NCBI GenBank assembly: GCA_035629175.1
Contig: DASPIL010000001.1
Span: 1 to 64,000, forward strand
Source: Verrucomicrobiia bacterium
Lineage (GTDB): Bacteria > Verrucomicrobiota > Verrucomicrobiia > Limisphaerales > DASXHY01
Reading direction: 5' to 3'
Length of the DNA: 64,000 nt
Both the position numbers and the translations under genes were made by a program. A model generated the notes under the pieces. It was not told where the DNA came from, made no database searches, and saw only the letters and a list, made by a program, of their open reading frames with translations. Of the stretch, positions 21,515-52,629 are shown in pieces; position 1 is the first letter of the stretch, and each line of letters starts with the position of its first letter.

Positions 21515-21602
21515 ACGTGAACGTTAGCTTTGGTTGGAGATGGCTGATAGCTCAATTGCAAAGAGCAAACCCGGCTGAGTGCATCCTGACACTGCCCCGG
21601 AC

Positions 21603-21622
21603 CGCGACCTTCGGGTCGCTTG
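21603..21622 (-). repeat. YGAA-loop hairpin repeat, copy 1 (minus orientation)
   Basis: Read on the minus strand it is CAAGC-GACC-CGAA-GGTC-GCG, a six-base stem closed by a CGAA tetraloop. It belongs to a family of five copies in this window and faces copy 2, 50 bases away, in the opposite orientation. Confidence 0.65.
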
Positions 21623-21672
21623 AATGAGCGCATCGAGTCGTGTGAAGTCATTGCCCCGCGGATTCGCACGCT

Positions 21673-21692
21673 CAAGCGGCGTGAACGCCGCG
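21673..21692 (+). repeat. YGAA-loop hairpin repeat, copy 2
   Basis: CAAGC-GGCG-TGAA-CGCC-GCG. The flanks and loop agree with the other copies; the stem differs but is fully complementary. It lies 76 bases before the start of the sensor kinase gene. Confidence 0.7.
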
Positions 21693-21767
21693 CTCCTCCT
21701 CCATTGTGGCTTCTGGCGGGACCCAGATTCGGCTTTCGGCTTGCTGGGTTTTCGCAATACTTTCCCC

Positions 21768-40931: not shown

Positions 40932-40957
40932 AAGAGATCGCCGGCTTGCGCTCGAAG

Positions 40958-40977
40958 CGCAGGCTTCAGCCTGCTTC
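40958..40977 (-). repeat. YGAA-loop hairpin repeat, copy 3 (minus orientation)
   Basis: On the minus strand GAAGC-AGGC-TGAA-GCCT-GCG. The stem differs from every other copy yet pairs perfectly. It faces copy 4 in the same intergenic gap. Confidence 0.65.
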
Positions 40978-41035
40978 AGCGGGAAACATGCGGGACGTGT
41001 GGTACTTGCCCACGCCGATCTCAGTGCCCAGCGTT

Positions 41036-41055
41036 GAAGCGGCGTGAACGCCGCG
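41036..41055 (+). repeat. YGAA-loop hairpin repeat, copy 4
   Basis: GAAGC-GGCG-TGAA-CGCC-GCG, preceded by GCGTT as in copy 5. It lies 19 bases beyond the 3' end of gcvP, which runs on the other strand. Confidence 0.7.
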
Positions 41056-41073
41056 TTTCGGAGCGCGGGCCGC

Positions 41074-43959
41074 TCAAGCCTGGTACTCGTCCATACCCAC
41101 GCACGAACAGATCGGGTTCCGATCGCCGAACACATTGTCCACTCGGCCCACGTGCGGCCAGAATTTGTAGTCCCGAAGACTCTTCACCGGAAACGCAGCC
41201 TGCTCGCGAGTGTAGGGCCGATTCCAATTGTCGCTCGCAATGATATCCGCCGTGTGCGGCGCACCTTTCAGCACATTGTTCCTGGCGTCCACGCTGCCGC
41301 TTTCCACGGCTTTCATTTCTTCGTGAATCGAAATCATCGCGTCGCAAAACCGGTCCAGCTCGAACTTCGATTCGCTCTCCGTTGGTTCCACCATCAGCGT
41401 TCCCGCCACGGGCCAGGAAAGCGTTGGTGCGTGAAAACCGTAGTCCATGAGGCGCTTGGCCACGTCCTCGGCAGTGACTCCCTTGAACGCGCGCAGGTCG
41501 AGGATGCACTCGTGCGCAACCAGGCCATTGCTCCGATAGAGCGTGGGGAAATTATTCTCCAGCCGCCGGGCAATGTAGTTGGCATTGAGGATCGCAAACT
41601 TCGTGGCATCCGTGAGTCCAGTTCCGCCCATCATTGCGATATACATCCACGAAATCGGCAGGATGCTGGCGCTTCCCCAGGGCGCAGCGCTGACGGCGCC
41701 AATCGCGACCTGATGATTGTCGTCTGCCGAATGGGGAGAGATCACCGAATGGCCCGGCAGGAATGGAACGAGATGTCTTGCCACACCGATCGGGCCCACA
41801 CCTGGCCCGCCACCGCCGTGCGGAATGCAGAACGTCTTGTGCAGGTTGAGATGGCAGACGTCCGCGCCGATGAATCCCGGGCTTGTGAGGCCCAACTGCG
41901 CGTTCATGTTCGCGCCATCCATGTAAACCTGCCCACCCGCCGCGTGCACGATTTCACAAATCTCCCGAATGCTTCCCTCGAAAACGCCGTGGGTGCTCGG
42001 ATACGTAATCATCAGGCAGGAAAGGGCGTTCCGATGCATTTCGGCTTTGCCGCGCAGATCGGAGACATCGATGTTTCCATCCTTGTCGCAAGCGACTGCC
42101 ACAATTTTCATCCCGGCCATGGCGGCGCTGGCAGGGTTTGTTCCGTGGGCGGAGGTGGGAATGAGGCAGATGGTCCGATGCGTTTCGCCACGCGACTCGT
42201 GGTAAGCCCGAATCACGAGCAAGCCAGCGTATTCGCCCTGGGACCCCGCATTCGGCTGGAGAGAAATTCCGGCAAAGCCTGTGCATTCGGCGAGCCAGCT
42301 CTCGAGCTGCTTGAACAGCTCCTGGTAACCGCGTGTTTGTTCCAGGGGCGCGAACGGATGAATCCTTGAAAACTCAGGCCATGAAACGGGAAACATTTCG
42401 GCTGTGGCGTTCAGCTTCATCGTGCACGAACCCAGCGGGATCATGGATGCGGTCAGGGAGAGATCGCGCGATTCCAGCCGCTTGATGTAACGCAGCATTT
42501 CGGTTTCCGAGTGGTATCGGTTGAAAACCGGATGCTGGAGGAACGTGGATTTTCGGTTGTGAATTTCGGGTTGCGAACCTGGCGCGAGATCCCGCAGGTC
42601 GAGGCGGAATGTCTTGTCGTGATTGAATACCTGCAGCAGTTCCGCGATATCCTCGACGCGCGTTGTTTCATCCAGCGCAATGCCAATCGCGCCCTCATCG
42701 ACCAGGCGCAAGTTGATTCGATGTGCCTTCGCGATTTGCAAAATCTCTGCCGCGCGCTCCTTTCCAGCATTGATCGTTACTGTGTCGAATCGCCGCGCCG
42801 GCGGGATGGTGAAACCGAGCTGTTGCGAACCGGCCACGAACAAAGCGGTGAGAGCATGGACACGTTTCGCAATTTTCTTCAATCCCTCGGGGCCATGATA
42901 CACCGCGTACAAGGCTGCCATGTTCGCGAGCAGCGCCTGTGCTGTGCAGATGTTGCTGGTCGCCTTTTCACGTCGAATGTGCTGTTCGCGCGTCTGGAGC
43001 GTCAGGCGCAGGGCCGGCCGCCCGCGGGAGTCCTTCGACACACCAACAAGACGCCCCGGCAGCATGCGTTTGAAAGCATCCTTCGTTGAAAGGAACGCTG
43101 CGTGGGGCCCGCCATATCCGAGCGGAACGCCGAAACGTTGAGCGTTGCCCACGGCGATGTCCGCCCCGAACTCGCCTGGCGGCGTGATCAATGTCAGCGC
43201 CAGGAGATCTGCGGCAACCGTCAGCATTGCGCCCGCTGCGTGTGCCTTCTCCGCGAACGCGCTGAAATCATGGATGACACCGAACGTGTCAGGATATTGC
43301 ACCAGCGCGCCAAACACCTGGTCATGGAAAACAAATTGGTCATGACTGCCCACGATCACTTCGATGCCTAGCGCTCGCGCGCGTGTTTGAACCACTTCGA
43401 TGTTTTGCGGATGACACGCGTCCGACACGAAGAATGTATTCCGCCCATCCTTCAGCGCCTGGGAGAGGGTCATCGCTTCAGCGCATGCGGTGGCTTCGTC
43501 GAGCAGCGAGGCGTTGGCGATATGCATGCCCGTCAGTTCCGCGACCATGGTTTGGAAGTTCAGCAACGATTCCAGGCGGCCCTGCGAGATTTCTGCCTGG
43601 TACGGGGTGTACTGCGTGTACCAGCCCGGATTTTCCAGCACGTTGCGCTGTATGACGGGCGGCGTGATACAATCATGGAAGCCCATCCCGATGAAGGAAC
43701 GAAATACCTGGTTCTGCGCGGCAATGCTTTTCAGATCGGCGAGCGCGGCATGCTCGGTTCGCGGGCGCGGCAGATTCAACCGCTGTGTGAGACGGATCTG
43801 CCTGGGCACAGCGGCGTCGACAAGTTGATCAAGATCGTTGTAGCCCAACAGGTTGAGCATTTCGCGGGTGTCCTCCGCAGAGGGGCCGATATGGCGTCGA
43901 ACAAAACTGTCCGGATGCGCCAGGGAATCGGAAAAAGCCGAACTTTCTGAATCTGACAT
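41074..43959 (-). CDS. gcvP: Glycine dehydrogenase (decarboxylating), P protein
   Basis: A full-length 961-residue single-chain P protein of the glycine cleavage system, a PLP enzyme that decarboxylates glycine and passes the aminomethyl group to lipoylated GcvH. The N-terminal half shows [15 protein letters not shown] and [20 protein letters not shown]; the C-terminal half has [20 protein letters not shown] and the PLP lysine in [19 protein letters not shown]. The gcvT and gcvH genes are not adjacent, and no glycine riboswitch pattern is visible upstream. Confidence 0.96.
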
Positions 43960-52388: not shown

Positions 52389-52602
52389 GGTAAAATCCAG
52401 AAAAGTCGAGCGCCGTAAGGTAGCTGGAGACCGGATGAATGCAATGCCTAATTTTTTGCCGCTCGCGCGCGATTACTGCGTAACGATTTTAACGGCGTGG
52501 GCCCATTCGCTGGGTTTCGTCATCGGCAATGTTACCAGCAACGCTTCTTCGGTTTGCTGGGCTGACGCGTACAACTTGCCTGCGCGTCCGCTGGCCAGCG
52601 TT

Positions 52603-52622
52603 GAAGCGCCGTGAACGGCGCG
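52603..52622 (+). repeat. YGAA-loop hairpin repeat, copy 5
   Basis: GAAGC-GCCG-TGAA-CGGC-GCG with the same GCGTT lead as copy 4. Compared with copy 4, a stem G-C pair is exchanged for C-G on both sides, a compensatory change. It ends eight bases before the end of the convergent epimerase gene. No partner copy is visible here. Confidence 0.7.
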
Positions 52623-52629
52623 CGGCGTT

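Follow-up and report, generated by a model that had tools for sequence, protein, structure and literature searches.

The window analysed here, a 64,000-nucleotide stretch of DNA from a Verrucomicrobiia bacterium, contains five small hairpins whose stems differ while the loop is retained. The question raised by this locus is what kind of element these hairpins are and, if they are mobile, what has spread them.

Hairpins in the window

All five elements of the original prediction are present at the positions and on the strands claimed for them, and AAGCNNNNYGAANNNNGCG has five exact matches in the window, which are precisely these five. The four variable bases are perfectly complementary in each copy, as had been stated, and the paired stem is 6 bp rather than 4 bp long, consisting of an invariant GC and the four variable bases. 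When one mismatch was allowed, AAGCNNNNYGAANNNNGCG matched 10 times in the window versus 4.75 ± 2.34 times in shuffled sequence, with 10 or more matches in 3 out of 100 shuffles; the five additional one-mismatch matches are absent from the list of window hairpins with a YGAA loop and a 6-bp stem. A search of the window against Rfam retrieved no matches at gathering thresholds. The window content amounts to two pairs (21597-21698 and 40952-41061) and one single hairpin (52598-52628), scored below with the R1 covariance model:

21580..21597, plus strand: left terminal inverted repeat of a probable ISKra4-like MITE remnant, TGCATCCTGACACTGCCC, one mismatch to the repeat of genome G088
21597..21627, minus strand: probable REP hairpin, left arm of a back-to-back pair, stem GACC, 38.7 bits
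21668..21698, plus strand: probable REP hairpin, right arm of the 21.6-kb pair, stem GGCG, 45.2 bits
40952..40982, minus strand: probable REP hairpin, left arm of a back-to-back pair, stem AGGC, 43.3 bits
41031..41061, plus strand: probable REP hairpin, right arm of the 41.0-kb pair, stem GGCG, 44.3 bits
52598..52628, plus strand: probable lone REP hairpin, stem GCCG, 40.6 bits

The back-to-back pairing at 21.6 kb and 41.0 kb and the outer terminal repeat at 21.6 kb are additional to what had been described. Hairpin starts are 71 bp apart in the 21.6-kb pair and 79 bp apart in the 41.0-kb pair. The latter is located between convergent genes, with its right arm 12 bp away from the minus-strand gene 41074-43959, on that gene's 3' side, and the lone hairpin lies 1 bp from a gene call, at the 3' end of a minus-strand gene (end 52630).

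Copies and compensation across the genome

The assembly of the window's genome comprises 5.41 Mb in 108 contigs. With the stem left unselected, GAAGCNNNNYGAANNNNGC occurs at 43 places genome-wide versus 16 for the same pattern read backwards. Perfect arms were found at 22 of these 43 places, with 10 different stems, whereas 2000 shuffles of the partner arms averaged 2.9 and never exceeded 9; the proposal that structure is kept with compensation is thus borne out in an unselected set. In a separate set of 25 sequences, all 150 cells pair and 36 two-sided changes were counted versus 12.6 in shuffles, but these sequences were picked for paired stems, a choice that favours pairing, and the unselected 43-place test is therefore the fair one. 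The covariance-model search of the genome that had been suggested yielded, using R1, at least 106 matches at E≤1 and at least 71 at E<0.01, with 150 of the 8126 first-look candidates scored.

Neighbouring close pairs (n=22) are back to back (−,+) in 21 cases and (+,−) in one, which indicates that the basic unit is an inverted pair with the foot outermost. Starts are 71–89 bp apart in 20 of the 21 (−,+) pairs and 160 bp apart in the remaining one. Many sites carry one hairpin alone. The spacers of 20 pairs from this genome are weakly alike, with a mean similarity of 0.54 versus 0.46 in shuffles and 26% of the comparisons exceeding the 99.5% quantile of the shuffles. Two pairs fold better than shuffles as single-stranded DNA, the one at 41.0 kb (z −3.34) and one next to the RAYT gene of G043 (z −3.05); folding is not unusual for the 21.6-kb pair (z −0.89) or the single hairpin (z −0.75). 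A search for empty sites, in which the flanks of 51 pairs were compared with 405 loci, retrieved five matches, none of them clean.

Placement and distribution

Genomic placement was determined for R1 matches of at least 22.9 bits, corresponding to 66 sites with 83 hairpins, using a simple and crude gene caller. Sixty of the 66 sites fall outside crude gene calls; six overlap one, two are at a locus edge, and 34, 14 and 10 occupy co-directional, convergent and divergent gaps, respectively. All copies had been said to lie between genes. In the window this stands if the crude gene call across 21597-21698 starts too far upstream, as we think it does; genome-wide it does not, this pair being one of the six overlapping sites. 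The suggested enrichment between convergent genes is unconvincing (14/58 sites, versus 8/34 of the window's gene pairs, or 15% of its intergenic length).

Proximity to gene ends gave a clearer pattern. No more than 30 nt separates 31 of the 58 sites from a gene 3' end, where placing them at random within these gaps would give 15.3 ± 2.5; for 5' ends the same distance takes in none of the 58, with 8.2 expected. Together with the compensated stems, this bias would suit an interpretation of the hairpins as RNA signals of the host, resembling terminators or stabilising mRNA at the ends of genes, which arose or were kept for that function and do not move. We consider this very improbable. REPs in general are reported to favour 3' locations (PMC3733652), and one-sided (G-U) changes make up 2 of 150 cells versus 36 two-sided changes, which would be odd for RNA, in a set chosen for pairing. 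The presence of the hairpin is also patchy, at least 62 out of 146 genomes of the window's order having R1 matches at E≤1e-5 (at most 49 candidates scored per genome), and neither the fixed pair spacing nor the RAYT association and MITE form described below would be expected of such signals.

Among the 80 matches listed for one form of the hairpin, the named records are nearly all Verrucomicrobia (Pedosphaera, Limisphaerales, subdivision 3), with several labelled Akkermansia muciniphila and one Acidobacteriaceae. A pair is found at the same place, with flanks 78–88% identical, in a Limisphaerales record (L190, ~7472) and in one labelled Acidobacteriaceae (L259, ~5186), and the contig of the latter may be mis-binned.

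A RAYT clade beside the same hairpin in relatives

Two rounds of Pfam Y1_Tnp searches, covering seven and six genomes, provided 58 loci that were scanned with R1, four of which had a match at E≤0.001 anywhere in the locus (L137, L279, L287 and L295). In L137 and L295 the hairpin is hundreds of bases away; L279 and L287 gave the lead to a RAYT clade. Genomes G043 and G029 encode RAYT genes among copies of the window's hairpin. The G043 protein had matches in 140 of the 320 genomes searched in the order, and this search supplied one locus from each of 30 genomes for an R1 scan.

When these 30 loci were placed in a tree with four RAYTs from the window's own genome, 17 formed one branch with support 100/100. 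An R1 hairpin is located within 300 bp of the matched frame in all 17 clade loci, in 14 of them at E≤0.001, the weak matches being L388, L390 and L391 (E 0.015–0.083). Twelve of the 17 have a hairpin on both sides, and in six clade loci a hairpin stops 6 bp short of the matched frame on its upstream side. Outside the clade, 1 of 13 RAYTs has a weak match (L392, E 0.09). Considering that two of the 17 loci, those of G043 and G029, gave the lead, 15 are independent. A start-to-start distance of 79 bp, that of the window's 41.0-kb pair, recurs among the pairs beside clade RAYTs. The suggestion that the elements look like REPs was right, and relatives hold a matching RAYT clade beside the same hairpin.

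Clade proteins aligned with the REP_Tyr_transpos profile at 80.0 and 84.0 bits (cut-off 80), and the sole solved relative found was the TnpA-REP 4er8 (E 1.7e-5). They contain the HUH-type PNHxH motif and a C-terminal tyrosine region, whose roles we take in part from PMC6006769. Of the 15 genomes with at least 20 strong R1 matches, three (G029, G043 and G052) have a clade RAYT from the set of 17, a figure that is an undercount because RAYT fragments were left unplaced and draft assemblies break at such repeats.

Two further observations concern individual loci. Relative to L389, locus L382 (~1437-1514, genome G100) seems to lack both the hairpin pair upstream and the beginning of the RAYT gene. 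In the RAYT sub-branch of L386, L388, L390 and L391 (support 87/93), the hairpins mostly match the core of the model alone, as if the hairpin flanks had changed along with the transposase.

Transposases of the window's own genome

Five Y1_Tnp genes were detected in the window's genome, none on the window's contig (C1), which agrees with the earlier remark that no RAYT is visible in the window. Four are readable RAYTs (L044/C37, L045/C67, L047/C69 and L048/C42), each bracketed by its own, different hairpin family; one of them scores above the REP_Tyr_transpos cut-off of 80 (81.7 bits) and three below it (59.7, 74.9 and 79.6 bits). The fifth gene (C64) is cut by a contig end, and the fragment, 28% identical to the G043 protein, was left out of the tree. 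No own Y1-transposase was found in the clade branch, the own RAYTs being 26–47% identical to the G043 protein. They were also rejected as partners of the window's hairpin, as an R1 scan of the five stretches around the own Y1-transposases returned no match better than E 0.17. With the clade RAYT absent from the window's assembly, the link between hairpin and transposase rests on relatives.

By eye, three of the hairpin families of the own RAYTs have a G(T/G)AG-C-palindrome layout, with the foot GTAG in the C67 family and GGAG in the C37 and C69 families. The spacer of the 160-bp pair (L005, L024; C37:77045-77235) encloses a hairpin-pair element that is, again by eye, nearly the same as the one at the side of the C37 RAYT; this nested insertion is without clear target duplication.

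Given the compensated stems, the many pairs, the mostly intergenic placement with its 3' bias and the RAYT clade flanked by the same hairpin in relatives, the window hairpins are very probably REPs and REPINs, likely spread as single-stranded DNA by a RAYT that was not found in the assembly. Several results count against a RAYT origin: no clade RAYT was found in this assembly, few genomes rich in the hairpin have one, the GGAG foot is rare among the hairpins of this genome (see below), its spacers are only weakly alike, the 21.6-kb pair and the single hairpin fold unremarkably, and the empty-site search gave no clean case.

The foot tetranucleotide

The outward layout of the hairpin is GGAG-C-palindrome. 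Counting fully paired stems exclusively, with G-U allowed, the GGAG foot is present in 19/27 hairpins beside clade RAYTs and 23/27 in G017, and it is scarce in the window's genome (5/36) and in G088 (4/31). A GTAG foot was found in none of the 121 hairpins from the clade-RAYT loci, G017, the window's genome and G088, and we therefore do not place the hairpin in the GTAG super-family of REPs. According to published biochemistry, selection of the cleavage site depends partly on the foot, to an extent that varies by system (PMC8266576).

A form inside an ISKra4-like MITE

Genome G088 has at least 114 R1 matches at E≤0.01 (150 of 5074 candidates scored). Here the repeat reaches outward to terminal inverted repeats of the form GGGTGCATCTTGACACTGYCC, the pair being enclosed in a MITE that has 9-bp target duplications. 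The direct repeats flanking 30 G088 elements have a mean identity of 0.563 versus 0.320 for mismatched flanks, and 5/30 are perfect where none was expected; these values are for the best of 16 offset and length combinations (ends GGG...CCC, 9 bp), the runner-up giving a mean of 0.467 and 1/30 perfect. Both terminal repeats were recognised at 23/30 loci and at least one at 29/30, with 0 in the control. By eye, two of the 30 elements are short: L334 is without the hairpin pair and L338 has the left hairpin only. At a contig end of the same genome (G088:C50:50-368, L302-L304), the hairpin pair forms a short tandem array with a period of 144 bp.

Traces of these ends are present in the window's genome, where TGCATCCTGACACTGCCC occurs at 20 places with up to three mismatches versus one for the backward control. 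Seven of the 66 sites, the 21.6-kb pair among them, keep one terminal repeat (control 0) and 59 show none; at the 21.6-kb pair no right-hand terminal repeat was found. An IS with such ends on both sides was detected in G050, measuring 1374 bp from repeat to repeat. Its transposase is most like ISKra4 (NF033572, 170.4 bits, below the cut-off of 205), and its flanks showed no target duplication. L366, also of IS size (1354 bp from one repeat to the other), has flanks that, by eye, share 8 bp. In the window's genome, IS ends were seen at contig ends only: the same 141-bp IS end is present at two of them, with 77% identity to that of G050 over part of its length. Separately, a 153-bp element in G005 (L363, ~1370-1522) has ends of the same type, encloses a different, GGAGCGC hairpin pair and has flanks alike at 7/9 bases.

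The terminal repeats and perfect duplications of G088, and the single repeats at seven own sites, would suit a DDE-type MITE as the true mobile unit, the pairs without repeats being worn remnants and the likeness to REPs secondary. We regard this as improbable. The clade-RAYT loci have no terminal repeat at up to four mismatches (0/17; at five mismatches, 3/17 versus 4/17 in the control), G017 has both repeats at 0/20 loci and one at 2/20 (control 1), most own sites have none, and a MITE of this kind would not predict the association with RAYTs.

Proposed history

The likely history is RAYT-driven spread followed by orphaning; a DDE-type element would have carried some of the copies. An HUH/tyrosine transposase would recognise the foot and hairpin on one DNA strand, then cut there and mobilise both hairpins together. 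Once the window's lineage had lost its RAYT, the copies would have persisted and decayed, often minus one arm, with the GGAG foot eroding, and some pairs may have become enclosed by ISKra4-like ends and been multiplied by a DDE transposase. The chances seem to us evenly divided as to whether the REPIN lineage swapped its vehicle altogether, a RAYT-moved pair caught in DDE-type repeats then multiplying RAYT-free while its GGAG eroded; the 21.6-kb copy would be a hybrid relic, and the G005 element would suggest repeated capture.

Comparison with known systems

REPINs with RAYTs are already known (PMC3116915, PMC3733652). As far as our searches show, what is new is a GGAG foot with its own RAYT clade and a REPIN within an ISKra4-like MITE. 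Among the papers listed by searches of the open-access literature, none describes the window's family, REPs in Pedosphaera/Limisphaerales, or a REPIN inside an ISKra4-like MITE. For a Verrucomicrobia order that has been little studied and is mostly uncultured, the family supplies a RAYT/REP partnership with a clear gene–repeat match and a new foot tetranucleotide. Its forms make up a natural series: hairpins with a GGAG foot beside their RAYT, hairpins with an eroded foot where the RAYT was not found, and a pair in a DDE-type shell. This series makes testable what sustains REP populations without a transposase, a question from REPIN models (PMC8049555).

The REPINs of Pseudomonas fluorescens SBW25 (PMC3116915) are likewise inverted REP pairs, RAYT-linked, with the conserved end outermost and a spacer less conserved than the arms; their GI pairs have a spacing of 71 bp, and those of the window's genome 71–89 bp. 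Unlike them, the window's family has another sequence and another host phylum, one third of its spacing classes in G017 is shorter (44 bp), the RAYT was not found in the window's genome, and one form lies inside a DDE-type MITE.

The GTAG-tagged REP super-family, which includes Opitutus terrae (Verrucomicrobia), shares short palindromes, complementary stem variants, tag-outside pairs, 3' location and RAYT association with the window's family, whose tag is GGAG rather than GTAG/GTGG (PMC3733652). CGTC-tagged REPs (PMC3733652) are similar in their 4-nt loops, in forming pairs and in occurring in many genomes without a transposase; however, their stems are 8–9 bp versus 6 bp, and they reportedly never flank a transposase gene, whereas the window's family does in relatives. 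Group 3 TnpA-REP/REP systems, e.g. Marinomonas Mb (PMC8266576), resemble the window's family in having a RAYT that adjoins its own REPs and, just behind the foot, a small perfect palindrome whose loop is 4 nt long. They differ in that their foot is GTAG rather than GGAG and their palindrome 10 nt rather than 12 nt, and the window's family is characterised here by its sequence.

As for ISKra4-family IS and MITEs, the terminal repeat in G088 and in the window matches an IS whose transposase is nearest to NF033572, although that transposase scores below the family cut-off and the MITE carries a REP pair. A partial precedent for such an arrangement is provided by the REP pairs inside palindromic sequences described in A. 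variabilis and H. neapolitanus (PMC3733652).
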